A stretch of 40,829 nucleotides of DNA from a virus: positions 1 through 40,829 of the IMG/VR virus record IMGVR_UViG_3300032334_000755. One strand, given 5' to 3'. Position 1 is the first letter of the stretch; every line of letters starts with the position of its first letter. The position numbers and the translations under genes are program-made. Positions 2,958-29,283 of this stretch are shown here, in pieces. The notes under the pieces were generated by a model. It was not told where the DNA came from and did not search any database. It saw only the letters and a program-made list of their open reading frames with translations.

Positions 2958-5402
2958 TTATGCGTATTTCTTTGCTAGATGACCTTGCATACCAGCGTCT
3001 GGGTTTCTCACTGGTGGTTTCATAGCATAGGTATTGGAACTGCTGTTAGTAATAGTTGTTGGAGCAACGACATTAGTATTTGATGCAGCTGGTTTAGCAT
3101 TCTTGGCTAGATCGCTTTCAGCTGATGCAGCGGCAACCTTGTTACCTGTCTGTGGTTCTTCAGGTGACTTCAGCTTAGCAAGATCGGTTGCCTTGGCATA
3201 ACCAACATCAACTTTCATCTTATCAAAGAAACTTAACTTCTGATAAGCATCATCTTCCTTGACGATATCAGCAACTTCTTGTTTATTACCTGATGAAGCG
3301 TTGGATTTAATTTTATTGAATGCACGTTTACTAATTTCACGTGTTTCTCCTGGTCCAGCTGCATCACCTGATAGAGTTGATTTACCAGTAGCTGGATCGA
3401 AGGTTGCTAAATTTTGACTATATGTAGCTTTACCATCAACAACTTTCTCACGAGTGTCCAGAACATTAGTTTTGTCCTTGGACATCTCATCTCTTCTTCG
3501 CTTTTGGGCAGGAGTTTCGTTAGTGCGATCACCCGTATACTCACTACCACCACTACTAACAACACTTTGTTTTAAGTCAGAAGATTCACCCTTTGAACTC
3601 GAAGACTGTTCTAAACTTGATGAACCACCAACACGATTCTCTCCCTTTTCTGGTCTGAACGGATAGAATGGTCCGATAGCAACTTTCTTACCAATGATTG
3701 GAATAGTAAATCCAATTTCTGGTATGCCAAAGTCTTCAAGGAAACCAAACACTTGATCTTTAATCTTCTTAAAGAAGTCTGCAATAGGTGCAAAGAACTT
3801 TTTAACTGGTTCTACAATATACTCTGTAAGCATACCACCGATAAACCCAAATGCTTCCATGATTGGTTGTGCGATATACTTGTCAAAAGAATTTCCAAGA
3901 AATCCAAAGAAGTCTTTAAGTGGTTGTATGATATAATCGTCAATAAAACCATCAAAGAAATTTACCAGCGAACGAATCGTTTCAGCATCGATAAGACCGA
4001 AGGTTAGGAATGAAAGGATGCCACCGAATCCAGCTATCAATGCTTCTGCAATTGATCCAGTTTCCATGAATGCCTTAAATCCATCCATAATACCATTGAT
4101 CAGCGAGCCGATGATCATTGCAGGTAATAAGAATTTTGTAAATGCTTTGAGTAGATTCTTTGGATTGAAGATAAACTTGGCTGCATTAAGAATTCCAGTT
4201 CCAAGCATACCCATGATACCATCTAAGAAGCCACTACCGCCACCTTCTTCTGTCTTAGGTTTCTGTGCGTCATTTGGTTTTCTTGCACCACCTGTATTTT
4301 GTGCTATGGCTCGAAGCAATTCAGTTTGCTCTTGCATCATCTTCTGATTTTCAATATCAGCTTCTGTCATATCAGCTGCACCAAGACCAGAAGATGTTCC
4401 TCCTGAGAACGAATCATCATTGGCTGCTGGCTTGATTATCTTTGCTCTTTTCTTTGTTGAGTTTGGATCATCAATATCAGCTGCTTTAACTGTCTTTGGT
4501 TTGTCTGGATCTGCTTTAATTTTAGAATCTGTTGATTCTACCTTAATTGGTTTAACATCAGCTGATCTTTTCTTTGTAGAATTTTTATCAGTATCATCTG
4601 CAGCTTTAACTACTTTTGCTTTCTTTGGATCCACATCTTTAGTTGGTCCACCGAATGACTCACTGAATCGAGTATCTACCTTTGCCAGTTGTCCTTCTAA
4701 CTCTACACCTTTCTTGAAGAAGCCACCACGTTTGATCTGACCTTCTTTAAAGCCACGATCTTGCAGTCCTTGTATCTTTGCCTGATTCTGTTTCATATCA
4801 GTCTGTATTTTTGCAGACTTTTCAAATGATTCACCGAAAGACTTTTTACTTCCAAAAGTACTGCCCTGTGTGTCTACACGATCTTGAATGTATTGTTGTT
4901 TCTGCTCTCTGCGTTCGAGAGACTTGTCCATCAGACCACCAACGAATGTATCGCTGTGACCTTTCTTGAGAATACCAGTTGTATCTAGAACACCACGAAG
5001 GCTACCGAACTTTTCCTTGAAGGTAGCCTTCGTGGTTTCACCTGCAGTTGCATTAATCTTTCCAGTCTGTGGAGATAGTCCCATAACCTTTTCGGTTATG
5101 CTTCCAGGTTTCTGTTGACCAGAACTTCCACCAGCGCCAGCAGCACTCTTTTGAATTTCCTTGAGGGTTTTAGATAGCTGACCTTTGTCACCGAGAGTAT
5201 CGCCAACAGTCTTATTCAGTTTATCCAACTGAATAAGTTGTTTCTTGGCAAAGTCTACGTATAGTACATTGTTTTCTTTGGTTAGTGTTTCTAGCTTAGA
5301 CGTGGATGCATTTCCACCCATTGTATCTGGGCTTTGCATCTTCTGTTTGTCTAATACTTGTTTCATTTGCTTTGCATCCTTTGCTTTTCTTCTTCTAACC
5401 AT
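2958..5402 (-). CDS. probable tail tape measure protein (gp29 position)
   Basis: 814 aa. The N-terminal half is long, Lys/Gln/Ser-rich and helical or disordered. It includes a repeated basic motif around residues 255-330 (TVKAADIDDPNSTKKRAKI and relatives). A hydrophobic region at about residues 385-475 (LLPAMIIGSLINGIMDGF, FGGILSFLTFGLI) would give membrane-spanning segments. It is followed by three tandem 19-residue repeats (DDYIIQPLKDFFGFLGNSF and two relatives). This architecture, and its position directly downstream of gp26/gp51, fit a tape measure protein that sets tail length. Direct similarity to T4 gp29 (590 aa) is not obvious to me. The start overlaps the end of the gp51 frame by about 40 nt. 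Confidence 0.75.
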   Translation of the reverse strand: MVRRRKAKDAKQMKQVLDKQKMQSPDTMGGNASTSKLETLTKENNVLYVDFAKKQLIQLDKLNKTVGDTLGDKGQLSKTLKEIQKSAAGAGGSSGQQKPGSITEKVMGLSPQTGKINATAGETTKATFKEKFGSLRGVLDTTGILKKGHSDTFVGGLMDKSLERREQKQQYIQDRVDTQGSTFGSKKSFGESFEKSAKIQTDMKQNQAKIQGLQDRGFKEGQIKRGGFFKKGVELEGQLAKVDTRFSESFGGPTKDVDPKKAKVVKAADDTDKNSTKKRSADVKPIKVESTDSKIKADPDKPKTVKAADIDDPNSTKKRAKIIKPAANDDSFSGGTSSGLGAADMTEADIENQKMMQEQTELLRAIAQNTGGARKPNDAQKPKTEEGGGSGFLDGIMGMLGTGILNAAKFIFNPKNLLKAFTKFLLPAMIIGSLINGIMDGFKAFMETGSIAEALIAGFGGILSFLTFGLIDAETIRSLVNFFDGFIDDYIIQPLKDFFGFLGNSFDKYIAQPIMEAFGFIGGMLTEYIVEPVKKFFAPIADFFKKIKDQVFGFLEDFGIPEIGFTIPIIGKKVAIGPFYPFRPEKGENRVGGSSSLEQSSSSKGESSDLKQSVVSSGGSEYTGDRTNETPAQKRRRDEMSKDKTNVLDTREKVVDGKATYSQNLATFDPATGKSTLSGDAAGPGETREISKRAFNKIKSNASSGNKQEVADIVKEDDAYQKLSFFDKMKVDVGYAKATDLAKLKSPEEPQTGNKVAAASAESDLAKNAKPAASNTNVVAPTTITNSSSNTYAMKPPVRNPDAGMQGHLAKKYA
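3771..3941 (-). repeat. three tandem 57-nt (19-residue) repeats in the tape measure gene
   Basis: The encoded units are DDYIIQPLKDFFGFLGNSF, DKYIAQPIMEAFGFIGGML and TEYIVEPVKKFFAPIADFF. All share a Y-I-x-x-P core followed by paired aromatics. The repeats are clear at protein level and weaker at DNA level, so they are probably an old duplication retained for structure. Confidence 0.8.
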
Positions 5403-5542
5403 TGAATCAACATAGTCACATATATCTCTCGTTCAAACGGTAACATATCTTCCAACTCTTGCAAGCTATACTTATGGTATTGCATTAACGCAAAATTTGT
5501 TTTATAAAAGTTATAGAGAGACTCATGACAAAGGTTTATTAA
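5363..5542 (-). CDS. 51: gp51-like tail/hub assembly protein, probably made by -1 frameshift from gp26
   Basis: An open frame in the -1 register after the gp26 stop reads LINLCHESLYNFYKTNFALM, then QYHKYSLQELEDMLPFEREI and YVTMLIQWLEEEKQRMQSK. This resembles the small gp51 proteins of T4-like marine phages, which have an HHKYS..ELE.M.PFER.IY pattern as I recall them. The only ATG (5485) gives 40 residues and discards the coding-like upstream part, and no ribosome site precedes it. The gp26 gene ends in a run of eight T (5548-5541 on this strand), a T-TTT-TTT slippery site. A -1 slip there would give a 298-aa gp26-gp51 fusion. The TGA at 5365-5363 overlaps the tape measure start. Confidence 0.7.
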   Translation of the reverse strand, partial: LINLCHESLYNFYKTNFALMQYHKYSLQELEDMLPFEREIYVTMLIQWLEEEKQRMQSK

Positions 5543-6258
5543 AAAAAACTGTTAAGACCCTCGATCACCTTTTCATGGTGATGCTTACAAACTGGGCAGT
5601 CGTACTGCACTTCCTTGGACAGTTTTGGCATTGTTTCAAAGAACTGTTGTATCTTTTTAAACTGTTCTTGGTTTAAATTCTCCAAGAACTCTTGCAACTC
5701 TTCATGAGTTTGATCCTTGGAGTAGTGTAACTCATCACCATCATAGATCAATTCTATTGAGGTGGTAACAACTTTAAATACTGATTCTGCATCAGCTTGA
5801 TCCATACCTTCAAGATCTTTGATCATAGCGAGCGATGGGTAACGCATTACTACACCGACATCATCGAATAGTGGAATTTTCTTGGTGTGTTCTGTAGGAA
5901 AGTTTACCTGTAACTTAGACAGGTCGAAACTCAACTTAACACGTGCCTTAGTTTCTTCATCTGGACAAACATCACAGGCTACCACGATGTCTACAACCTC
6001 ACCTACCGACTTGGCTCTTAGTTGACAGAATAGATACTCGATGTCAAATAGCGCAAGCGTATCCATATCCAGTTCTGTTTTCACACAGGACTTTATGATC
6101 TGCTTTAGTGTATCCATCATTACAGTCTGGTCATCACTTTGTTGAGCGATGAGAAGTGCTTTCTCTTCCTTTACCAGAAAGGCACGAAACTTAACTTCCT
6201 GTTTTGTAGATGGGATTGTTGCTGTGTATAATGTTGCATTCTGAATAGGTAATGCCAT
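5539..6258 (-). CDS. 26: gp26-like baseplate hub / tail assembly protein
   Basis: 239 aa, compared with 208 for T4 gp26. It has the N-terminal FRAFLVKEEKALLIA and FDIEYLFCQLRAKSVGEVVD signatures that I associate with the gp26 family of T4-like phages. Two CxxC pairs (Cys95/Cys98 and Cys221/Cys224, the latter in DCPVCKHHHE) look like a zinc ribbon. T4 gp26 is needed for hub assembly. Its position before the tape measure, together with gp51, suggests a chaperone for that protein. The start is supported by AAGGAG 8 nt upstream. The end (GLNSFF, codons TTT TTT TAA) is the proposed frameshift site. Confidence 0.8.
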   Translation of the reverse strand: MALPIQNATLYTATIPSTKQEVKFRAFLVKEEKALLIAQQSDDQTVMMDTLKQIIKSCVKTELDMDTLALFDIEYLFCQLRAKSVGEVVDIVVACDVCPDEETKARVKLSFDLSKLQVNFPTEHTKKIPLFDDVGVVMRYPSLAMIKDLEGMDQADAESVFKVVTTSIELIYDGDELHYSKDQTHEELQEFLENLNQEQFKKIQQFFETMPKLSKEVQYDCPVCKHHHEKVIEGLNSFF

Positions 6259-6261
6259 ATG

Positions 6262-6684
6262 TCAAACTCCTTTGTTCATGTTATTAATCAATTTGCTCAA
6301 TTCCGCAGTACTACCCACGAAAATCGCATTATTATTTGTCACTTGTTTCGCTGCCTCGCCCTTGCTTGGTGCGTCAAGATCTTTCTTCTTACCATGCAGA
6401 TCCATTAACTGGTGGTTAATGTCTGCAAGCTGTTTCATCAAATTACCCACGACCTCAAAGGCACGTGGATGCTCTGAAGATTTTGCAACCTCCAGTGCAT
6501 GGTTCAATGCATCTTGTCCCTGCTGTAGCAGGTTGTGTAGATTGCTTCTAGACTTATTATAGTCATAATCCATTCGTTCATCGGGAGGAAGAATCACTTC
6601 TCCACTTTGTGTAATGACTTCGCCTGTTACCTTTTCTGTAGGTTGTAGGTCAAAGATCTCACTCATATTATTGTCAATTTTCAT
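6262..6684 (-). CDS. 16: gp16-like terminase small subunit
   Basis: 140 aa, compared with 164 for T4 gp16. The central segment YDYNKSRSNLHNLLQQGQDA, then LNHALEVAKSSEHPRAFEVV and LMKQLADINHQLMDLHGKKK, matches the helical core of T4-type small terminases (in T4, NEALQLALNIARETEHARAM). The small subunit forms a ring that regulates the gp17 packaging motor and DNA recognition. Here it is not next to gp17, which is not in this window. It lies in the late minus-strand operon between a holin and gp26. No strong ribosome site precedes either Met1 or Met7, so the exact start is uncertain. Confidence 0.8.
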   Translation of the reverse strand: MKIDNNMSEIFDLQPTEKVTGEVITQSGEVILPPDERMDYDYNKSRSNLHNLLQQGQDALNHALEVAKSSEHPRAFEVVGNLMKQLADINHQLMDLHGKKKDLDAPSKGEAAKQVTNNNAIFVGSTAELSKLINNMNKGV

Positions 6685-6689
6685 AGTGT

Positions 6690-7103
6690 TTATAGATTCG
6701 GTCTTGGACGTGGTCTCGGCGTATCGGTTGTTGCAGGTGCAGGGTCTTGGAAAGATTGCTGAAATGTATCTGACGAAGGTGCGCCATATGTTGATTGAGT
6801 GCTAGGTGGTGCAAAGGAATTTGATATTGGCACATTAATTGCTGCGCCAGCTACTTTCTCTTGAGTACGACCCCATGCTGCGATACCCAATACTGCACCC
6901 ATTGCTAAGTGAAACAATCCAGCACCTTGTAGCGTTAGTGGGTTCCACTGAGTAACTGGTTGTTTAGTGAATACTTGTAGCAAACTCCAAAGCACAGGGA
7001 ATATTGCCATATCCAGTGTACAGATAATCATGTACATCCAACCCATTGCTGGACGCCACTTCTTTTGCATCCAGTCTTCGTCTTTTTTAGATTCGTCTCC
7101 CAT
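6690..7103 (-). CDS. holin-like membrane protein
   Basis: 137 aa with two clear hydrophobic segments (about residues 20-45 and 58-77) after a charged N-terminus (GDESKKDEDWMQKKWRPAMG). A Pro/Ser/Thr-rich soluble tail ends in PRPRPRPNL. The K-x-W-R-P-x-x-G-W start and the layout resemble the 'holin of 3TMs' family (PF11351 type), whose members form inner-membrane holes for endolysin release. The start has AAGGAA 7 nt upstream. It is embedded in the structural late operon, with no endolysin gene beside it. A baseplate- or packaging-associated membrane protein is the alternative. Confidence 0.65.
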   Translation of the reverse strand: MGDESKKDEDWMQKKWRPAMGWMYMIICTLDMAIFPVLWSLLQVFTKQPVTQWNPLTLQGAGLFHLAMGAVLGIAAWGRTQEKVAGAAINVPISNSFAPPSTQSTYGAPSSDTFQQSFQDPAPATTDTPRPRPRPNL

Positions 7104-10621: not shown

Positions 10622-11910
10622 TGGCACTTAGACAAGATGGACTAAGGTTCCCTGGTGATGTAGATATTGATCGGATTGAGATCTTCTCAGCCAATGGCGC
10701 AGGTGTAGAAGTCACTGACATGGTTGCGGAGATTCAGATTTTTGAAGATATGTTTGCGCCATGTGTAACAGGAACACTTGCAATAACAGACAATATCGAT
10801 CTGGTAAATAAATTCCCATTCATTGGCGAGGAAAAGGTTCTTATAAAAATAAAAACACCTGCAATGCCTGACCTAAAGGAAACTAGAATTGATCAGGAAT
10901 TTTATATCTACAAAATGACAGACAGAAAGGTTCTTGGAGACAAGCAAATCTTTTATATGTTGCACTTCTGTTCTTTTGAATTGATCGCAGATGCAAACAT
11001 CAAACTCTCTCGTTCCTTTGATGGTAAGATATCTGATATCGTTACTAAAATTATAAAAAGCGAGATCGTTAAAACAAAAATGGATCTGGTTGTTGATGAG
11101 ACTAAGAACTCAGTCAAGTATGTTTCTAATTACTGGTCTCCCTACAAAAATATCAACTACCTGCTAGAAAGAGCGCAAAACAAAGACGGTACACCGAACT
11201 ACGTATTTTTTGAGAATCGTCGTGGACTAAACTTTGTTTCCCTTTCTGGCATATTCAGTTTAGATGATAAAGAGTCATATACCTTTGATGCATTTCAAAG
11301 AACACCGAAAACGCATGGATCTATTCAAAACCCAAATGAACAATTTGCACGTTTTCTTGACTATACAATCGAAACTGGATTTGATTATCTACAAAGAACA
11401 AACAGTGGTATGTTCGGTAGTAAAATGATTGCTCATGATATTCTGACAAAGAAGTATAGCACACAAAACTTCAATATGTTTCAGTTTTTCGATTCTGAAA
11501 AACATCTGAACAAATATCCAGTTTCTTCCACTGATGTTCTTGCAAGAAACAACGCCAACATTTACAACTATCCAAAGTATATGAATAATGTAAATGGGTT
11601 TGGTGATGATGGTGCACAGAACTGGCTGCAGCGCAGAACTTCACTTATGGCGCAGACAAATGCTTACAGAATGACTGCCGAGATTCTTGGTAGAACTGAT
11701 ATAACTATCGGTGAAGTTATCTACATTAAAATATACAAGTCAGCAGCAGTTAATAAATCAGATGATAATGATTCTCTGATTGACAATATGTTCAGTGGTC
11801 GCTATGTAATTAGCGCACTCAATCATAGGATTACTCGTGAGAAGCACGAGATACATATGGAATGTTTGAAAGATTCATTAATCGTTAACCCAGCGACAGG
11901 TAAAAAATGA
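10621..11910 (+). CDS. 27: gp27-like baseplate central hub protein
   Basis: 429 aa, compared with 391 for T4 gp27. The start LRFPGDVDIDRIEIFSANG leads into an ITDNIDLVNKFPFIGEEKVL segment typical of hub proteins, where two tube-like barrels form the trimeric hub that docks gp5. Its place directly before gp5 (ATGA overlap at 11907-11910) and after gp53 supports the call. The two proteins form the (gp27)3-(gp5)3 complex. Direct similarity to T4 gp27 is weak by eye, so the assignment rests on length, position and general pattern. Confidence 0.8.
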   Translation: MALRQDGLRFPGDVDIDRIEIFSANGAGVEVTDMVAEIQIFEDMFAPCVTGTLAITDNIDLVNKFPFIGEEKVLIKIKTPAMPDLKETRIDQEFYIYKMTDRKVLGDKQIFYMLHFCSFELIADANIKLSRSFDGKISDIVTKIIKSEIVKTKMDLVVDETKNSVKYVSNYWSPYKNINYLLERAQNKDGTPNYVFFENRRGLNFVSLSGIFSLDDKESYTFDAFQRTPKTHGSIQNPNEQFARFLDYTIETGFDYLQRTNSGMFGSKMIAHDILTKKYSTQNFNMFQFFDSEKHLNKYPVSSTDVLARNNANIYNYPKYMNNVNGFGDDGAQNWLQRRTSLMAQTNAYRMTAEILGRTDITIGEVIYIKIYKSAAVNKSDDNDSLIDNMFSGRYVISALNHRITREKHEIHMECLKDSLIVNPATGKK

Positions 11911-14648
11911 GATTATATACTGGTTGTGTAGAAAATAGAAAAGATCCACTGAAGTTGGGTCGTTGTCAGGTTCGTATTGTTGGACTTCACACCGAACAGA
12001 AAACTCTTCTGCCAACAACAGACTTACCATGGGCATATCCAATGCAGCCAGTTACCTCTGCTGCCATGAATGGTATCGGACATGCACCAGTTGGACCAGT
12101 AGAAGGAACATGGGTTGTTATTTTCTTCAGAGATGAAGATCAACAACAACCAGTAATGATGGGTACCATCGGCGGTATCCCTCAACCAGACTCAAAGAAG
12201 CTGGATGAATTCACTGACTTCCCAGAACTATTTCCAAGTGCCATCGCAGAGACAGGTACAAAGAAAGATGATGTTGCTCAAAACGTAGTGACCGATGGAT
12301 CTGGAAATCCAATTACTACAGGTTCTGGTGGTGTGCTCACCACTGGTAATGCTAATACACCTGCTGCTGCAGCAACGACTGCAAATCAAAATGCTGCAGC
12401 AGCAAAGACAGATCCAGTAATTCCTGGGTCGCCTCCCTACGGAAAGAAAACTGGTTCCTCTGTTGTAATTCCTCAGACTTCATACAAAGGTATTCAGTCA
12501 ATCGGTAATGCGATGACCACGGCAGGAATTACTTCCAAGTATGCACGTGCAGCTATTCTTGGTATCGCAATGGGTGAATCAAAGTGTGTACCTCAGAATG
12601 AGGGATATAGTTATAATGCATCTAGGCTGAAACAGGTTTTTAGTTGGATCGATGACGAGAATGCAGCAAAGTACGCTAATTGGAAAGGCACTCGTGATGA
12701 CTTCTTCCGCTACATATATGGACCGACAACTCGTTCTGGTAAATCTCTGGGACATACAGGTGCCGATGATGGCGCAAAGTATTGGGGTCGTGGTTACATT
12801 CAGTTAACAGGTAAGGGTAATTATACCAAGTATGCAAAGTTATCTGGTGTAGACATTATCAACTCTCCAGAACTCACCAATGACTATGATCAGGGTGCGC
12901 TAGTTGCAGTTGCTTACTTTAAGGATCGTGTCAAGGTTCAACAAAACGATCCATCCTACTTCGAAGCAGCATGTCGTGCAGTTGGTTACAACGTGCCAGA
13001 TATTAAAGCAGCGAAAAAGGCATACTATGAATACTTTCTTGGAGAAGTTGCAGCTGACGATAAGTCTGCAGTTCCAGGAGAGACACCTGCCAACGTGGTA
13101 GTAAACGATCAGGGCATTCCGCTAGATCGTATTCAGAATATGGATACAGGATTTTCAGACCCTGATATGAAGTATCCGCTACGCAGCCATATCGGCGAGC
13201 CAGATACTAACAGACTTGCAAGAAGTAAGGTATCAGGTACAGCAGTGGAGAAGAAAGATTCTACACGATCAACAGGCTTGCCAGTTGCCGATGGAACTAC
13301 CTTCAGTCAACCAGCTGTTCCTTATAATGCCAAGTATCCATACAACCATGTGTTTGAATCTGAGTCTGGTCATATTCAAGAATTTGATGATACTCCAGAC
13401 AACGAGCGCATTCACCTCTATCACAAGACAGGAACATTCCTAGAAGTTGATGTGAATGGCACACAGGTAAACAGAATCAGCGGTGATGGATACACAATCA
13501 TCGATAAGAATGGTTACATCTACATCAAAGGTGCTTGTACCATTACAGCTGAGGGTGCAACAAACATTTTCGTTAATGCCGATGCCAATATCAAAGTGGC
13601 TGGTCTAACTCAGATCGATCTGCTCAACGATGCAGCTATCAACGTAGCTGGTAATCTGGATCTGAATGTTGGTGGTGACTTTCAAGTTAAAGCAAGTACC
13701 TTTACGGTAGAAACAACTGGCGGTGATGTAAATGTAAACTCATCTGCCAAGATAAATCTGCAAGGTGCAGGAGATATCAACGTCAAGGCAGGTGGTAACC
13801 TTAATGAAGATGGTGCTACTATCGATATGAATAATGGTGCTTCAGCAGCTGCATCTAAAACATCTCTTGGTGCGCCACCAGATGTTGGCTCGCCAGAAAA
13901 TAACACATTTAAAACTCTTGAGGTACCAACAAGAAATATGGAAGACGAAGCAGGATTTGAAACACCAGAGGATAACGCTACACCAGAAGGCAAAGCGGCA
14001 AATAACTCCAGAGAAATTATTGGCGATAAAAGCACTCCAGAAAATACAACTGCCTCTGAAAGTGCAACAGCGCCAGCAAACAATGTTGCACCTAAGGGAG
14101 CAAACTGTGATTTAATCTACACAATGAATACCTTCCCAACATCGTTTAGACTGTCCACTAATGTAAACGTAGGTACTCTGATTGCAGGTAGCCATGTGTT
14201 ACAAGGACAAGAAGTTGGTGGCAAGAAGTTAAGCATACAAGAGATTGTATGTAATATGAAGGGTCTTGCAGAGAATTGCGTTGAGCCAATCATGGCTCTT
14301 GCTGGTGGTAAGGGTGCACTAATTATTACATCTGGATACAGACAGAATGGTGTTGTTTCCTACGCATCTAAAACTTCACAGCATCCTGCAGGGCAAGCGT
14401 TTGACTTTCAACTTGCAGGCAAGATAAACGACTATCAAGCTATGTACGACTTTGTTCAGAAGGTAGCAGGTGCTGTGCCATTTGATCAATTGATTCTAGA
14501 GTATAGAGATCCAGGTGTTGCAGGCAATAATAGAAATGTTCGCATCTGCTGGATTCACTGCTCGTTTACTTATACGGCAAATCGAAAGATGGCGTTTACT
14601 ATGCTGAACGACAAGACGTATAAGGCTAATGGATTTGCTTTACTTTAA
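11907..14648 (+). CDS. 5: gp5-like tail spike hub with GH19 and M15 peptidoglycan hydrolase domains
   Basis: 913 aa, compared with 575 for T4 gp5. Residues 1-95 are the gp5 OB-fold: RKDPLKLGRCQVRIVGLH, PITSAA-like PVTSAAMNGIG, PVGPVEGTWV. Residues about 185-375 form a GH19 chitinase/endolysin-type domain with Glu224 (GESK) and the hallmark GRGYIQLTGKGNY from residue 294. T4 has a GH24 lysozyme in this place. ESGHIQEFDDTP (about 480) starts the needle, a triple beta-helix to about 650. A Pro/Ala/Thr/Ser/Glu-rich linker follows, then an M15 carboxypeptidase-like domain (about 735-913) with SGYRQ (809), His826-x6-Asp833 and WIHCSF (His884) as zinc ligands. The protein pierces the outer membrane and cuts the wall during injection. 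Confidence 0.93.
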   Translation: MRLYTGCVENRKDPLKLGRCQVRIVGLHTEQKTLLPTTDLPWAYPMQPVTSAAMNGIGHAPVGPVEGTWVVIFFRDEDQQQPVMMGTIGGIPQPDSKKLDEFTDFPELFPSAIAETGTKKDDVAQNVVTDGSGNPITTGSGGVLTTGNANTPAAAATTANQNAAAAKTDPVIPGSPPYGKKTGSSVVIPQTSYKGIQSIGNAMTTAGITSKYARAAILGIAMGESKCVPQNEGYSYNASRLKQVFSWIDDENAAKYANWKGTRDDFFRYIYGPTTRSGKSLGHTGADDGAKYWGRGYIQLTGKGNYTKYAKLSGVDIINSPELTNDYDQGALVAVAYFKDRVKVQQNDPSYFEAACRAVGYNVPDIKAAKKAYYEYFLGEVAADDKSAVPGETPANVVVNDQGIPLDRIQNMDTGFSDPDMKYPLRSHIGEPDTNRLARSKVSGTAVEKKDSTRSTGLPVADGTTFSQPAVPYNAKYPYNHVFESESGHIQEFDDTPDNERIHLYHKTGTFLEVDVNGTQVNRISGDGYTIIDKNGYIYIKGACTITAEGATNIFVNADANIKVAGLTQIDLLNDAAINVAGNLDLNVGGDFQVKASTFTVETTGGDVNVNSSAKINLQGAGDINVKAGGNLNEDGATIDMNNGASAAASKTSLGAPPDVGSPENNTFKTLEVPTRNMEDEAGFETPEDNATPEGKAANNSREIIGDKSTPENTTASESATAPANNVAPKGANCDLIYTMNTFPTSFRLSTNVNVGTLIAGSHVLQGQEVGGKKLSIQEIVCNMKGLAENCVEPIMALAGGKGALIITSGYRQNGVVSYASKTSQHPAGQAFDFQLAGKINDYQAMYDFVQKVAGAVPFDQLILEYRDPGVAGNNRNVRICWIHCSFTYTANRKMAFTMLNDKTYKANGFALL

Positions 14649-22863: not shown

Positions 22864-25800
22864 ATGACTATAAACTTTAACGTAGATCCGTATTTTGACG
22901 ATTACAACGAAGATGACAAATATCTTCGTGTTCTGTTTCGTCCAGGATACCCAGTACAAGCACGTGAGTTAACCCAAGCGCAGACCATCCTGCAAAATCA
23001 GGTAACTCGCTTTGGTAACCATGTGTTTAAGCAGGGGTCTATGGTCACTCCTGGGCAAGTTTCCTATGATGGGGAATATGCCTATGTGAAACTTCAGACC
23101 ATTTACAATAATACTGAAGTCACTTCTTATGTTACTCAATTTATTGATCAGGAAATCGTTGGTACAATCAGCGGTGTTCGTGCTTTAGTTCTCTATGCAA
23201 CTGAGGCAACTGAAACTGATCCTCCTACTCTTTATGTTAAGTATAAGAACTCTGGTACTGACACATCTACCAAAGTTTTCAACAATAACGAACAGATTAT
23301 CTCTCAAGATAATACTAATCAGCGTTATGCCTTTACCTATACACAGGATGCAACTGGTATGGGTTCTTCTGCTTCTATTCAGAAGGGTATCTACTTCGTT
23401 AATGGTTACTTTACTCAGGTTGACCAACAGATTGTTATTCTTGACAAGTACACAAACTCACCTTCCTACCGTATCGGTCTAGATGTCTCTGAAGACATCG
23501 TTACTCCAGAGGAAGACGAGAATTTATTTGATAACGCACAAGGTTCAACGAACTATGCTGCTCCAGGAGCACATCGTTATAAACTCACTCTTACGTTAGA
23601 AAAACGTGCCACCGAAGATGATGGTGACATTGACTTCATTGAATTGCTTCGTGTCTCTGCTGGCGAAGTGCAGTATCAGGTTAAGAATGCTGCTTATGCA
23701 GATATTATGGAAACTATGGCTCGTCGTACTTTCGATGAGTCTGGTAACTACAGCGTAAGACCTTTTGGTATTGATGTTCGTGAACACCGCAACAATGATC
23801 GTGGGACATGGGATGCTGGTGTTGCTTATAAAATTGGCGACATTGTATCCAATGGTCTTGGTCAATCTTATGTTGCAAGAACATCTGGTATCTCAACAAC
23901 AAATAAGCCAGTACACACGCTAGGAGTTTCCTATGATGGAACTTCTCTCTACTGGGAATACACAGCGTCACCACCTTACAATCGTGGTGTTTACTCAGTC
24001 GCCGATGGTGGTGATGAGGCATATCTTGCCATGGGTATCGAGAAAGGTAAGGCATACGTACAAGGTTTCGAGATCGAAAAACTCGCAACTACCTATGTTA
24101 AAGTTCCAAAATCAAGAAACTATAAACAGATTCTAGATGGAAAAATCTCAACACCTGTCGGTAACTTTGTTGAGATAACAAACCTTTATGGTCCACCAAA
24201 TCTCCCAACCTTTCCAATCGTTGAATTACGTGATGCCAAAACAGTTACACGTGGTACCGCAGCTGGAAACTTAGTTGGTAATGCACGTATTCGTGGTATT
24301 GAGTTGGAATCAGGAACCAATGGTTCTGTGGCTGCTTACTACAAAGCGATGTTATTTGACATCGACATGCACACAGGTATCACTACTGTTGAAATTACTT
24401 CTGCAGGTTCTGGATATGGTTCGGCTCCAGCAATTACAATCGCTGACCCATTCATTAATGGTGTCGGTGGTAATACTGTTTCTACCTGGACTTCTGGCGG
24501 TACTGTTGCAGTTGGCCAATATGTAGCATACACAAACTCTGGTGTAAAGAATTTCTATAAAGTTATAAGCGGAACTACTCTTGGTTCAAGCGCACCGACT
24601 CATACTTCTGGACCAGCAACTGGAACAGTTAATGGTTCTGCATATCTGTTTTACTCTGGCACAACAGCTACTGCAACTGCAGTAATTGCTTCTGGTGCAG
24701 TAGTTGCGGTTCAAGTTACTCGTCCAGGTAATGGATATATTTCTTCGCCTACCTTTACTTTTGCCAGTGGTACTGCTGCTGTTTCATCTGCTGTTGGTAA
24801 ATTAGACTTCTCTCGTTTGGTTAAACAGCTGGCATATGCATCTGATGCTGCTGGTAATGCGTTCACTGCTGATGCGTATCCAGTTTATACAACTGGTGTT
24901 GGAACAATTACTGCCACTGGTGCAGGAACAAGTGCACTATGTACTGGTAATGGTACGTTGTTCCTACGTCAAGTTAAAGTTGGTGACATTCTAAGAACAA
25001 CTGATGGACGTGAGTTTAAAGTTGGATTCATTATTGATAACTTAACTCTTTATGCTTCCACAAACATTACAACTGGTTTCTCAGATCGTGCATTCAGTGT
25101 TCTAAATAATCCAATATTCGAACCAACCAATCTTGCTCTTCTTTACAGATTGCCATACGAAACTATTCGTCGTATTCGTTCTGTTGATGATGCAACAATC
25201 GGAACTACAACTCGTGTACGTGAGTACTTTGCTGAGCAAACTGTTAACTCATCATATCAGTTAAACTACTCAACTGACACAGCTGATCAAACATTCCTTA
25301 CACCAAACTCTCCATACTCTACAGATGTTAACTATCTGTTGGTGAAGACCTCTGGTGGTAACCTGACTACTTACCCAGCTGGTACAATTATTGCTCCAAC
25401 AAATATTCAGTTTACTGATACTACTCAGCGCAATATTCAAATTACAGTTCCAAGCGGATTGTACGATGTTACTGGATCAAAGGTTCGACTAATTGCAACT
25501 GTTAATAAATCTCAAGCAGCTGCAGGAGAAAAAACAAAGACATTACAATATGATGGTATTGTAAACGTAACAGTGCAAGCAAGTGTACAAGCAAACTTAA
25601 TAAGTCTTGGTAAGCCAGACGTTTACAGAATTCAAAAGATTCTACAATCTCGTGTTACCTTTGGAACTGCATACGACCCTTCAAGCGTAATCGACATTAC
25701 GGATAATTACGTACTGGACAATGGACAACGTGATACTCACTATGATATCGCATCTATTACCAGAAAGCCAGGAGTTTCTGCTCCAAATGGTCCAATCCGT

Positions 25801-28800
25801 ATCTATTTCGAGTACTTTACTCACTCAGGTACAGGTGATTACTTCTCGGTAGATTCTTACTCTGGTTTAAATTACAAAGACATTCCTTCATACAAGGGAA
25901 TTTCACTGTCAAATTATATTGACTTTAGAGCACGTATCAATGATGATGGTAAATCATTTAGCTCTGCCCCAATGCTTCCAAAGCGTTCAGAAGATTTGCT
26001 TGCAGACTATACTTACTATCTGGGACGTCGTGGTTCACTAGTTTTAAATGGTGATGGTTCTATTGCGAATAAAGAAGGTGTTCCATCAGATAATCCAGAG
26101 TATCCAGAGGCACCAGGCACTGGCATGGTTCTGTACAATGTTACATACATGCCTTATACCTATGATACTACCAATAAACAAGTAATTATTACTTCTATTG
26201 ATAATCGTCGCTTTACGATGCGTGACATTGGTAAGTTGGAAAATCGTATTGAAAGATTGGAAGAGTTTACTAAACTTTCCATGCTGGAACGTGCCACTGC
26301 ATCTACTCAGGTAATTGACTCAGCATCACTGAATGATCGTTTGAAAGCTGGTTTCATTGTTGACACTTTTGATGGACACACTATTGGTGGTGTGACAGAA
26401 CTTGACTATCGTGTTTCTATTGACACGATTAATCGTGAAGCACGTCCACTCTATAACATCGAGAACGTAAACCTGATTGAAAAGAACTTCACTGACAATC
26501 AACGTGCAACAAACAACTACATTGTAAATGGTGACGTTTTCACCCTTCCTTTTAGTCATCAGGTAATGATTAGTCAGTTGAAAGCATCAAGAACTGAAAA
26601 CATTAACCCATTCGCCATCTTTACCTTTATTGGTAACCTAACTCTTAATCCAGCATCTGATGAGTGGATTGATGTTGAGAATGTTGATATAACCGTATTT
26701 GATGATAAAGAGAAACAATCTCTCGAGTCTCTGGCAGCACTGACCTTTAATCCAGTAACTGGTAAACAAGGTATCCTTGGTAATTACTATGGCGCTTGGC
26801 AAGAAGTTGCTACAGGACGCAGCAAAACTGTTACTAGCAATTACAGAGAAGTATACGATACATCAGTATTCTTTCATGCTGATGGTAGCACTGGTTATCG
26901 TCAAAGACGTCATGATGAGGTTAATGCTAAAGAAATAGGTTACCAAAGAACTCAGTATACCACTGAAGTTAAGATGATCGGTAGTTCTACTCCGATTCTA
27001 ACTGAAGACAAGGTTACCAGTTCTACTATTATTCCTTACATTCGTTCACGACCATTGTTGTTTGTAGGCAAGGGTATCAAGCCAAGCACAACGGTAAACG
27101 CATTCTTCGATGGCACATCTGTAAATGAATATGTTGTACCTGCCAAGAAAATGGTTATCACAAACCGCACTGGTACTTTCGATGACAAGTCAAACGTAGG
27201 TGCAAATAATTCAGAGACAACTCGTCTGAGCAATGTTGATGGTAAGACAGTTCTTGCTTACAATAAAGGTGATGTAGTTTACGTTGCAACTCGTGATGGA
27301 ACTTCATATACTGCTGATAATGCACCCGCAACAGCGATTGTTGCACTAGTTGAGGACAGCACAACTGCTATCCGTCTTGTAAATGTAATTGGAACTTTCA
27401 CTGTTAATGATATTATCGTTGGAACAGTATCTGGGGCACGTGCAACAGTTTCCTCTATCGAAACACCTACAACGCTAATCACCAACGAGAATGGTGAAGT
27501 AGCTGGTGTGTTCACTATTCCAAATATGGATAAGTTGCGCTTCCGCTGCGGATCTCGAATCTTCAGATTGTCAGATACAGCAACTGATCTGAATTCAACG
27601 ACACGTGCTCAAACTGATTATCTGGCTTCTGGTGTTAAAGAAAAACACAATAGAACTTTTAGTTCTATTCGCCACTATGAAATCGCTACACGTGAACTCC
27701 CAGGTCAAACTGATGGTGCTCCAGCGAACACATGGGTAAACGATCCATCGACTGCTCGTACTGTTAATGATACTACATGGTATGATCCACTGGCTCAAAC
27801 TTTCTTGGTTCAGAATCCAGGTGGTATGATGTTGAGTAAGATCAATATCTATTTCCAGAGCAAAGACACTAGTGTTCCTGTTCGCATGGAGATTCGTGAA
27901 ACTGTCAATGGTTATCCAGGTAAAGTTATTCTACCGTTCTCCCAAGTAACTTTGAACCCTTCACAGGTTAATATATCTGATACGGCAACTGTAGCCACAA
28001 CCTTTACCTTCCCAGTACCTATTCCACTTCGTGACAAGACTGAGTATGCAGTGGTGATGGTATCTGACTCCAATAATTACAAAGTTTGGATTGCTCAAAT
28101 GGGTGAGAATGATGTTATTACAGGTAGACCAATTTCTGAGCAACCTTACATGGGTGTTATGTTCAAGTCACAGAATGGATCAACATGGACTGCAGAGCAG
28201 TATCAAGATCTGAAGTTTGAATTGTATCGTGCTAAATTTGACACTGGCGTGGTGGCAACGATTGACTTCGTGAATGACGTTATGCCAACTGATACACTGA
28301 AGAGTAACCCATTCGAGACTACAACTGGCTCAGGCGAAATTCTTGTTACTCACTATAACCACGGTATGCCTACTGGATCCAAGGTTAAGTTTACTGTTCC
28401 ATCTGGAACTTACCATGGCATTTCTTCTACACTGTTTAATACGGCTAATACCGTTACACGTATCAGTCACAATAAGTACAAGATTACACTTGCAGGTAGT
28501 GCCAATGCAACTGGTTTGACTGGTGGTGATAATGTTATTGCAACAAGAAATGTTCAGTTTAATCTGTTGCATCCACAGGTGGAAGAGTTTATCCTTCCAG
28601 ATACAAACATTCAGTACTACGTTCAGGCAGCGACTGGTAAGTCGCTAGATGGAACTGAAGTGCCATATGTTCTTGAGGATGTGTTCGTTGAAATTACACC
28701 GAACCAGTCTAACTACTTCTCGAACCCAAGAATGCTGGCATCTTCTCTAAATGAGTTGACACAAATGAATGGTAGCAAGTCCTTTACGCTTCGTGCCAAG

Positions 28801-29283
28801 ATGTATACTACTAACGATGCAGTAACTCCAATGTTGGATATTCATCGTACCTCTGCTTTGGTCGTTGAAAACATGATCAATAATCAGGATACAACAAACA
28901 TCACTTATGTTGATGAAACAACACCGAAGATTGGTTCTTCACTATCTAAATATATTACTAAGAAGGTTAAGTTGACAACACCTGGAACTGGACTTTATGT
29001 TTCGTTCGATCTGAATTGCCCTCCAGAAGCTAGCGTGAATGTTTACTACAAGATTGCCAAGTCTGCAGATGCTATTTTGTTTGAGTTGCAAAGCTGGAAA
29101 CTTTCTGTTCCTGATGCGCTGACCATTCCAAAACAACAAGACCCAACTTCTTATCAACAGGTTGTCTTTACCGAGGACAAGGTAGATGAGTATGACACTG
29201 TTCAGGTTAAGGTTGTGTTTACCTCGTCCAACTCTTCTGCTGTTCCAAAGATTCAAAACTTTAAAGTGATTGCGTTGGCATAA
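22864..29283 (+). CDS. giant DUF4815 baseplate / tail fibre connector protein (gp9/gp10 position)
   Basis: 2139 aa. The N-terminus, PYFDDYNEDDKYLRVLFRPG, then QARELTQAQTILQNQVTRFG and HVFKQGSMVTPGQVSYDGEY, is the DUF4815 signature found in structural proteins of cyanophage-like phages. Insertions are a CBM-like module at residues 314-366, a G-x-G-Y module near 505-520, a second CBM-like module at about 540-597, and a GTF-VND-SGARATV module near 1510. A coiled-coil stretch (GKLENRIERLEEFTKLSMLE) occurs near residue 1130. The late block DPLAQTFLVQNPGGMMLSKI is a conserved region in such proteins. By position it replaces T4 gp9/gp10/gp11 and should connect fibres to the wedge. It ends in TAATG. 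Confidence 0.82.
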   Translation: MTINFNVDPYFDDYNEDDKYLRVLFRPGYPVQARELTQAQTILQNQVTRFGNHVFKQGSMVTPGQVSYDGEYAYVKLQTIYNNTEVTSYVTQFIDQEIVGTISGVRALVLYATEATETDPPTLYVKYKNSGTDTSTKVFNNNEQIISQDNTNQRYAFTYTQDATGMGSSASIQKGIYFVNGYFTQVDQQIVILDKYTNSPSYRIGLDVSEDIVTPEEDENLFDNAQGSTNYAAPGAHRYKLTLTLEKRATEDDGDIDFIELLRVSAGEVQYQVKNAAYADIMETMARRTFDESGNYSVRPFGIDVREHRNNDRGTWDAGVAYKIGDIVSNGLGQSYVARTSGISTTNKPVHTLGVSYDGTSLYWEYTASPPYNRGVYSVADGGDEAYLAMGIEKGKAYVQGFEIEKLATTYVKVPKSRNYKQILDGKISTPVGNFVEITNLYGPPNLPTFPIVELRDAKTVTRGTAAGNLVGNARIRGIELESGTNGSVAAYYKAMLFDIDMHTGITTVEITSAGSGYGSAPAITIADPFINGVGGNTVSTWTSGGTVAVGQYVAYTNSGVKNFYKVISGTTLGSSAPTHTSGPATGTVNGSAYLFYSGTTATATAVIASGAVVAVQVTRPGNGYISSPTFTFASGTAAVSSAVGKLDFSRLVKQLAYASDAAGNAFTADAYPVYTTGVGTITATGAGTSALCTGNGTLFLRQVKVGDILRTTDGREFKVGFIIDNLTLYASTNITTGFSDRAFSVLNNPIFEPTNLALLYRLPYETIRRIRSVDDATIGTTTRVREYFAEQTVNSSYQLNYSTDTADQTFLTPNSPYSTDVNYLLVKTSGGNLTTYPAGTIIAPTNIQFTDTTQRNIQITVPSGLYDVTGSKVRLIATVNKSQAAAGEKTKTLQYDGIVNVTVQASVQANLISLGKPDVYRIQKILQSRVTFGTAYDPSSVIDITDNYVLDNGQRDTHYDIASITRKPGVSAPNGPIRIYFEYFTHSGTGDYFSVDSYSGLNYKDIPSYKGISLSNYIDFRARINDDGKSFSSAPMLPKRSEDLLADYTYYLGRRGSLVLNGDGSIANKEGVPSDNPEYPEAPGTGMVLYNVTYMPYTYDTTNKQVIITSIDNRRFTMRDIGKLENRIERLEEFTKLSMLERATASTQVIDSASLNDRLKAGFIVDTFDGHTIGGVTELDYRVSIDTINREARPLYNIENVNLIEKNFTDNQRATNNYIVNGDVFTLPFSHQVMISQLKASRTENINPFAIFTFIGNLTLNPASDEWIDVENVDITVFDDKEKQSLESLAALTFNPVTGKQGILGNYYGAWQEVATGRSKTVTSNYREVYDTSVFFHADGSTGYRQRRHDEVNAKEIGYQRTQYTTEVKMIGSSTPILTEDKVTSSTIIPYIRSRPLLFVGKGIKPSTTVNAFFDGTSVNEYVVPAKKMVITNRTGTFDDKSNVGANNSETTRLSNVDGKTVLAYNKGDVVYVATRDGTSYTADNAPATAIVALVEDSTTAIRLVNVIGTFTVNDIIVGTVSGARATVSSIETPTTLITNENGEVAGVFTIPNMDKLRFRCGSRIFRLSDTATDLNSTTRAQTDYLASGVKEKHNRTFSSIRHYEIATRELPGQTDGAPANTWVNDPSTARTVNDTTWYDPLAQTFLVQNPGGMMLSKINIYFQSKDTSVPVRMEIRETVNGYPGKVILPFSQVTLNPSQVNISDTATVATTFTFPVPIPLRDKTEYAVVMVSDSNNYKVWIAQMGENDVITGRPISEQPYMGVMFKSQNGSTWTAEQYQDLKFELYRAKFDTGVVATIDFVNDVMPTDTLKSNPFETTTGSGEILVTHYNHGMPTGSKVKFTVPSGTYHGISSTLFNTANTVTRISHNKYKITLAGSANATGLTGGDNVIATRNVQFNLLHPQVEEFILPDTNIQYYVQAATGKSLDGTEVPYVLEDVFVEITPNQSNYFSNPRMLASSLNELTQMNGSKSFTLRAKMYTTNDAVTPMLDIHRTSALVVENMINNQDTTNITYVDETTPKIGSSLSKYITKKVKLTTPGTGLYVSFDLNCPPEASVNVYYKIAKSADAILFELQSWKLSVPDALTIPKQQDPTSYQQVVFTEDKVDEYDTVQVKVVFTSSNSSAVPKIQNFKVIALA

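Follow-up and report, generated by a model that had tools for sequence, protein, structure and literature searches.

How does a phage make a tail protein whose reading frame has no start of its own? The question is raised by a 40,829-nucleotide stretch of virus DNA (IMG/VR record IMGVR_UViG_3300032334_000755, positions 1 to 40,829; here, the window), in which a gp26-like gene and a gp51-like frame overlap on the minus strand. The best explanation is very probably that gp26 and gp51 are one gene with two proteins, a tail assembly chaperone pair of the lambda G/GT type made by -1 ribosomal frameshifting. Three features define the junction:

5539..6258, minus strand: gp26-like gene for a putative short tail assembly chaperone (TAC-N) of 239 aa, identified as an ORF with PF12322 and phrog_150 matches and a chaperone-like predicted fold over residues 1-87.
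5542..5548, minus strand: slip heptamer U_UUU_UUU with the UAA stop (5541-5539) directly 3', read from the sequence and belonging to the site class found in 291/291 evaluable relatives.
5363..5542, minus strand: predicted -1 frame extension (gp51-like, TAC-C) of 59 aa plus the TGA stop at 5365-5363, recognized by phrog_634 and by coding-type substitutions ahead of its first ATG.

Read on the minus strand, the 3' end of gp26 is AAC AGT TTT TTT TAA, which gives the C-terminus N-S-F-F-stop. Eight consecutive T residues (5548-5541) comprise the last base of AGT, the two TTT codons, and the first base of the TAA stop; the heptamer T_TTT_TTT at 5548-5542 lies in the zero-frame register of gp26. The gp51-like frame is exactly -1 to gp26 and has no stop codon between a point 10 nt ahead of the gp26 stop and the TGA at 5365-5363, so that the predicted slip product runs ...NSFF-LINLCHESLYNFYKTNFALMQ... 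and has 239 + 59 = 298 aa. These results bear out a sequence-only reading of the window, which had placed the end of gp26 (TTT TTT TAA) within an eight-T run, described the gp51-like frame as exactly -1 and open to 5363, and predicted a fusion of this length. Scanning of the -1 frame found no ATG, GTG, or TTG ahead of the ATG at 5485, and the sequence preceding that ATG (ttttataaaacaaattttgcgtta) contains no Shine-Dalgarno motif. The same reading had called this ATG the only one in the frame and had noted that it has no ribosome site; the latter point stands, but the ATG is merely the first, with further methionines at DML, TML, and RMQ. An overlapping ORF pair whose second member is in -1 and lacks its own start is a feature of frameshifted pairs of the G/GT type, and it is present here.

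Profile matches assign both parts of the junction to known families. The gp26 product matches PF12322 (E=2e-61) and phrog_150 (E=3.9e-65), and the -1 product matches phrog_634 (E=3.6e-26), which represents the gp51 C-terminus. It additionally aligns with the last part of the phrog_150 profile (positions 239-276), from which it follows that fused members of this family exist. The 40.8 kb IMG/VR record, a fragment of the genome of a marine T4-like phage, contains one PF12322 match. Separate genes for a short gp26 and a full-length gp51, the T4-type arrangement, were not found within the 40.8 kb; gp51 occurs there as the -1 extension of gp26. The nearest contigs are metagenomic and 82-88% identical in gp26, and named relatives at about 40% include Pelagibacter phage HTVC008M and myoviruses of Synechococcus and Prochlorococcus.

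The junction was compared across a collection of 303 sequences from IMG/VR and named phages, among them the window itself and three control loci taken as reverse complements. The evaluable set consists of the 291 gp26 genes that could be scored, T4-type controls left out. In every one (291/291) an in-register T_TTT_TTN is found at the gp26 end, with C as the last base in 174, T in 84, A in 31, and G in 2. The conserved site and -1 register that the sequence-only reading had anticipated from an alignment of junctions across T4-like phages are thus found throughout the evaluable set. The heptamer lies 0 or 1 codon ahead of the stop in 288/291 tails (3 or 8 codons ahead in the other three), and a -1 extension of 35 aa or more is present in 287/291, the remaining four running off the contig. 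Elsewhere in the gp26 genes the in-register heptamer occupies 25 of 60,249 codon positions, or about 0.006 expected per 15-codon tail. Because the relatives fall into 120 clusters at 75% identity, the universal heptamer is not one sequence counted repeatedly. This comparison makes chance or sequencing error untenable as the origin of the slip site. One HTVC008M-like contig (L186) has a gp26 frame that breaks at about residue 163, probably through an assembly error.

The region between the slip site and the first ATG also carries the substitution pattern of a coding sequence in the -1 frame. Among seven close relatives, differences in this stretch fall at codon positions 1, 2, and 3 of the -1 frame in the proportions 40/39/131, and of the corresponding codon differences 116 are synonymous and 33 non-synonymous. 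The other two frames of the same stretch give synonymous to non-synonymous ratios of 14:147 and 27:138. The earlier impression that the frame looks coding before ATG 5485 is upheld by these mostly synonymous, third-position differences.

Phages of the T4 type serve as natural controls, and gp26 is encoded on the opposite strand in T4, Aeromonas phage 31, and Shewanella phage Thanatos-2. All three have a separate gp51 gene of 248-249 aa in which a PF12322 domain and the phrog_634 C-terminus share one reading frame, and the fused product therefore exists where it is plainly encoded. T4 gp26 and T4 gp51 are homologous (BLASTP E=2e-6 for the pair). A search for the slip heptamer in gp26 of T4 and Thanatos-2, the two scorable controls, found none. 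Among the phages examined, the slip site is absent where the short and long forms have separate genes and present where the genes overlap. As judged from sequence comparison, conservation of the heptamer and of the -1 register, the coding pattern upstream of the first ATG, and the lack of a slip site where the long form is a gene of its own all argue for -1 frameshifting.

In the proposed mechanism, most ribosomes would read AGT TTT TTT and terminate at the TAA, releasing the 239-aa TAC-N. A minority would slip one base back on U_UUU_UUU and continue through UUA AUA AAC, giving a 298-aa TAC-NC with the additional C-terminal domain. In the -1 frame both Phe tRNAs would again meet UUU codons and pair with them perfectly. 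An upstream GAGGG, able to pair with the anti-Shine-Dalgarno sequence of 16S rRNA, and the stop codon directly 3' of the slip site probably aid the slip, and both would favour pausing. By analogy with lambda, many copies of TAC-N and few of TAC-NC would coat the tape measure protein (PMC5009743); the TAC-NC extension would recruit tail tube subunits, and both forms would depart before the tail is completed. Two points count against slippage at this site: U_UUU_UUU is reported to be less shift-prone in E. coli than A_AAA_AAG (PMC5009743), and the window lacks a downstream hairpin of the kind seen in many relatives.

Three other explanations of the long form were weighed. The first places the slip in transcription, with RNA polymerase losing one base or gaining two on the T run of the mRNA. 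Eight consecutive T residues in the window are the kind of run on which this might occur, but bacterial slippage is described on runs of 9 A or T (Atkins review, PMC5009743), and both the heptamer register and the Shine-Dalgarno-like element are consistent with a signal to the ribosome. In most relatives the T run is only six long (TTTTTTC or TTTTTTA) and the architecture is the same, which makes polymerase slippage improbable as the conserved cause. Slightly more improbable still is an independent short gp51 protein, with translation beginning at ATG 5485 through re-initiation or translational coupling and no frameshifting. Public annotations often start gp51 at an internal ATG (as in HTVC008M and Syn1), and a methionine at this place is common in relatives. 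Yet the ATG has no ribosome site, about 18 codons ahead of it show protein-level conservation in the -1 frame, the methionine is missing in five relatives, the slip site is universal in the evaluable set, and in T4 and Thanatos-2 the long form is encoded in a single frame. The view of gp51 as a gene of its own beginning at ATG 5485 was rejected on the coding signal ahead of it and on the relatives with no methionine there. The third explanation, that the true gene has nine T residues and one plain fused frame, appeals to the error-prone nature of homopolymers and is refuted for practical purposes, because an identical eight-T run is found in seven other, independent metagenome contigs (L001-L007) and in hundreds of relatives the run is interrupted, in the same register, by C, A, or G.

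The putative chaperone role draws support from a comparison of folds. An AlphaFold2 model of gp26 (pLDDT 85) was compared with solved structures. In this predicted model, residues 1-87 match the HK97 tail assembly chaperone 2OB9 (Z 7.7 over 84 residues) and YqbN 3KLU (Z 7.4 over 85 residues), and the next row has a Z of 2.3; values below 8 can reflect a common arrangement and are not conclusive alone, and the two matches are moderate evidence. YqbN is a prophage tail-chaperone homologue. Both of the chains that stand apart belong to the phage tail-chaperone family, which speaks against a chance match. Foldseek alone also places 2OB9 at the top for gp26, without significance, and a search by sequence for solved structures of gp26 and T4 gp51 returned no credible match. 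Sequence identity is only 8%, and the remaining 150 residues of gp26 have no close counterpart among solved structures.

These fold matches lend moderate support to the analogy with lambda gpG/gpGT. The slip site of the lambda pair is G_GGA_AAG, in contrast to U_UUU_UUU in this phage, and gp26 is about 100 aa longer than lambda gpG. The likeness consists of a short protein and a rarer, -1 extended protein, with a tape measure gene, putative in this phage, adjacent to the pair (PMC5009743). Annotations carry the product names "baseplate hub" and "hub assembly catalyst" over from T4 genetics.

Frameshift sites are often accompanied by stimulatory elements, and one candidate is found upstream of the slip site:

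5558..5562, minus strand: Shine-Dalgarno-like GAGGG, 9 nt upstream of the slip site, a putative frameshift stimulator recognized from the sequence and from family-wide selection.

Across 119 clusters, this element pairs with the anti-Shine-Dalgarno sequence more strongly than synonymous shuffles do (mean z -1.19; random windows of the same genes, 0.06), although P-values for the stimulators overstate independence because the clusters are related. Codon choice points the same way: in matched Glu-Gly dipeptides GAG is used in 59/89 cases at the element versus 30/87 elsewhere, and the glycine codon GGG in 23/120 versus 50/823. From these comparisons of sequence, the element is selected beyond protein need across the family; the window's own signal, tested alone, is not significant (z about -1.3).

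Many relatives also have a hairpin that begins 5-7 nt beyond the heptamer, and folding downstream of the site is, on average, stronger than that of synonymous shuffles (z -1.74; -0.39 in control windows). In cyanophages whose extension starts [RI/RV]ALFH, a 9-bp stem is 93% paired, versus 64% or less when the stem is slid; the substitutions affect one side of a pair only (for example G-C to G-U), and the pairing is therefore support rather than proof. No downstream hairpin is found in the window (z +0.5 to +0.7). For the window's own clade, several folding frames were tried in a search for a hairpin or other simple downstream structure, and none was convincing. The idea that T7 sites compensate for a missing hairpin is unsupported in general, hairpin strength showing no overall difference between the T7 and T6C groups (P=0.93).

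The E. coli dnaX gene offers a close parallel for this arrangement of parts, with a Shine-Dalgarno-like element about 10 nt upstream of its slip site and a downstream hairpin, which in many of the relatives lies 5-7 nt from the site. The systems differ in that dnaX is an unrelated gene with a lysine site, A_AAA_AAG, and in that the window has no hairpin. There is roughly an even chance that the Shine-Dalgarno-like GAGG, the U_UUU_UUN slip site, and the downstream hairpin form a dnaX-like tripartite cassette whose parts have been traded between lineages. The window's clade, without a hairpin, would then rely on the T7 site, the adjacent stop, and the Shine-Dalgarno-like element, and T4 would have swapped the cassette for two genes.

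Frameshifting in these genes has been described before. The abstract of Vladimirov, Gautam and Davidson 2022 (Virology 566:9-15) is said to name T4 genes 26 and 51 and to report that frameshifting is conserved in several T4-like groups. In the passages that cite this work, PRFect (PMC10885494) states that some T4-like phages carry a short chaperone gene and a long fused gene, and the phage Adele paper (PMC12846349) states that poly-T slippery sequences are known in the TAC-N genes of T4-like phages. The idea of a gp26/gp51 frameshift is not new, having been published for phages of the T4-like group (Vladimirov et al. 2022). The gene families are the same as those named there, and the window's own lineage (the contigs of 82-88% identity) is probably not listed. 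The statistics for the Shine-Dalgarno-like element and the hairpin may add to what is published on T4-like chaperones.

Public annotation follows a different picture: none of the 10 public records of the overlapping type that were examined (0/10) annotates a joined gp26-gp51 frameshift product. In ACG-2014i (L017), S-CAM7 (L018), HTVC008M (L011), and Syn1 (L012), gp51 is annotated from an internal ATG or omitted. The comparisons indicate that in hundreds of marine phage genomes the gp51 listed as a tiny gene or an ATG-trimmed fragment, or not listed, is the C-terminal part of a frameshift product, a change that would correct the annotation of a very abundant group of ocean phages. Cyanophage gp51 was noted to be only about 20% of the usual gp51 length (Sullivan et al. 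2010, PMC3037559), and this shortness is explained if gp51 is a frameshift extension. The natural variants of the site, with and without a hairpin, would provide a ready panel for gauging how bacterial frameshift signals are tuned.

The gene order around the junction includes a tail tube gp19-like gene upstream of gp26 (7892-7122) and a long ORF after gp51:

2958..5402, minus strand: putative tape measure gene, assigned by position and length, with its start probably at ATG 5366 (an ATGA overlap with the gp51 stop) and not at ATG 5402.

This ORF has no Pfam match above the cut-off and no PHROG match, and BLASTP found no similarity to the putative tape measures of HTVC008M and P-SSM2 when cut fragments were compared. 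A terminase small subunit and a holin-like gene (6262-7103) separate the tail tube gene from gp26 within a single minus-strand block. Farther along, the ORF at 22864-29283 (2139 aa) has three DUF4815 matches and is likely a large tail or fibre protein. The ORF at 11907-14648 encodes a gp5-like baseplate hub/lysozyme protein with a Gp5_OB domain; residues 286-353 of its product have a weak match, just under the Pfam cut-off, to glycoside hydrolase family 19 (chitinase/endolysin-like).
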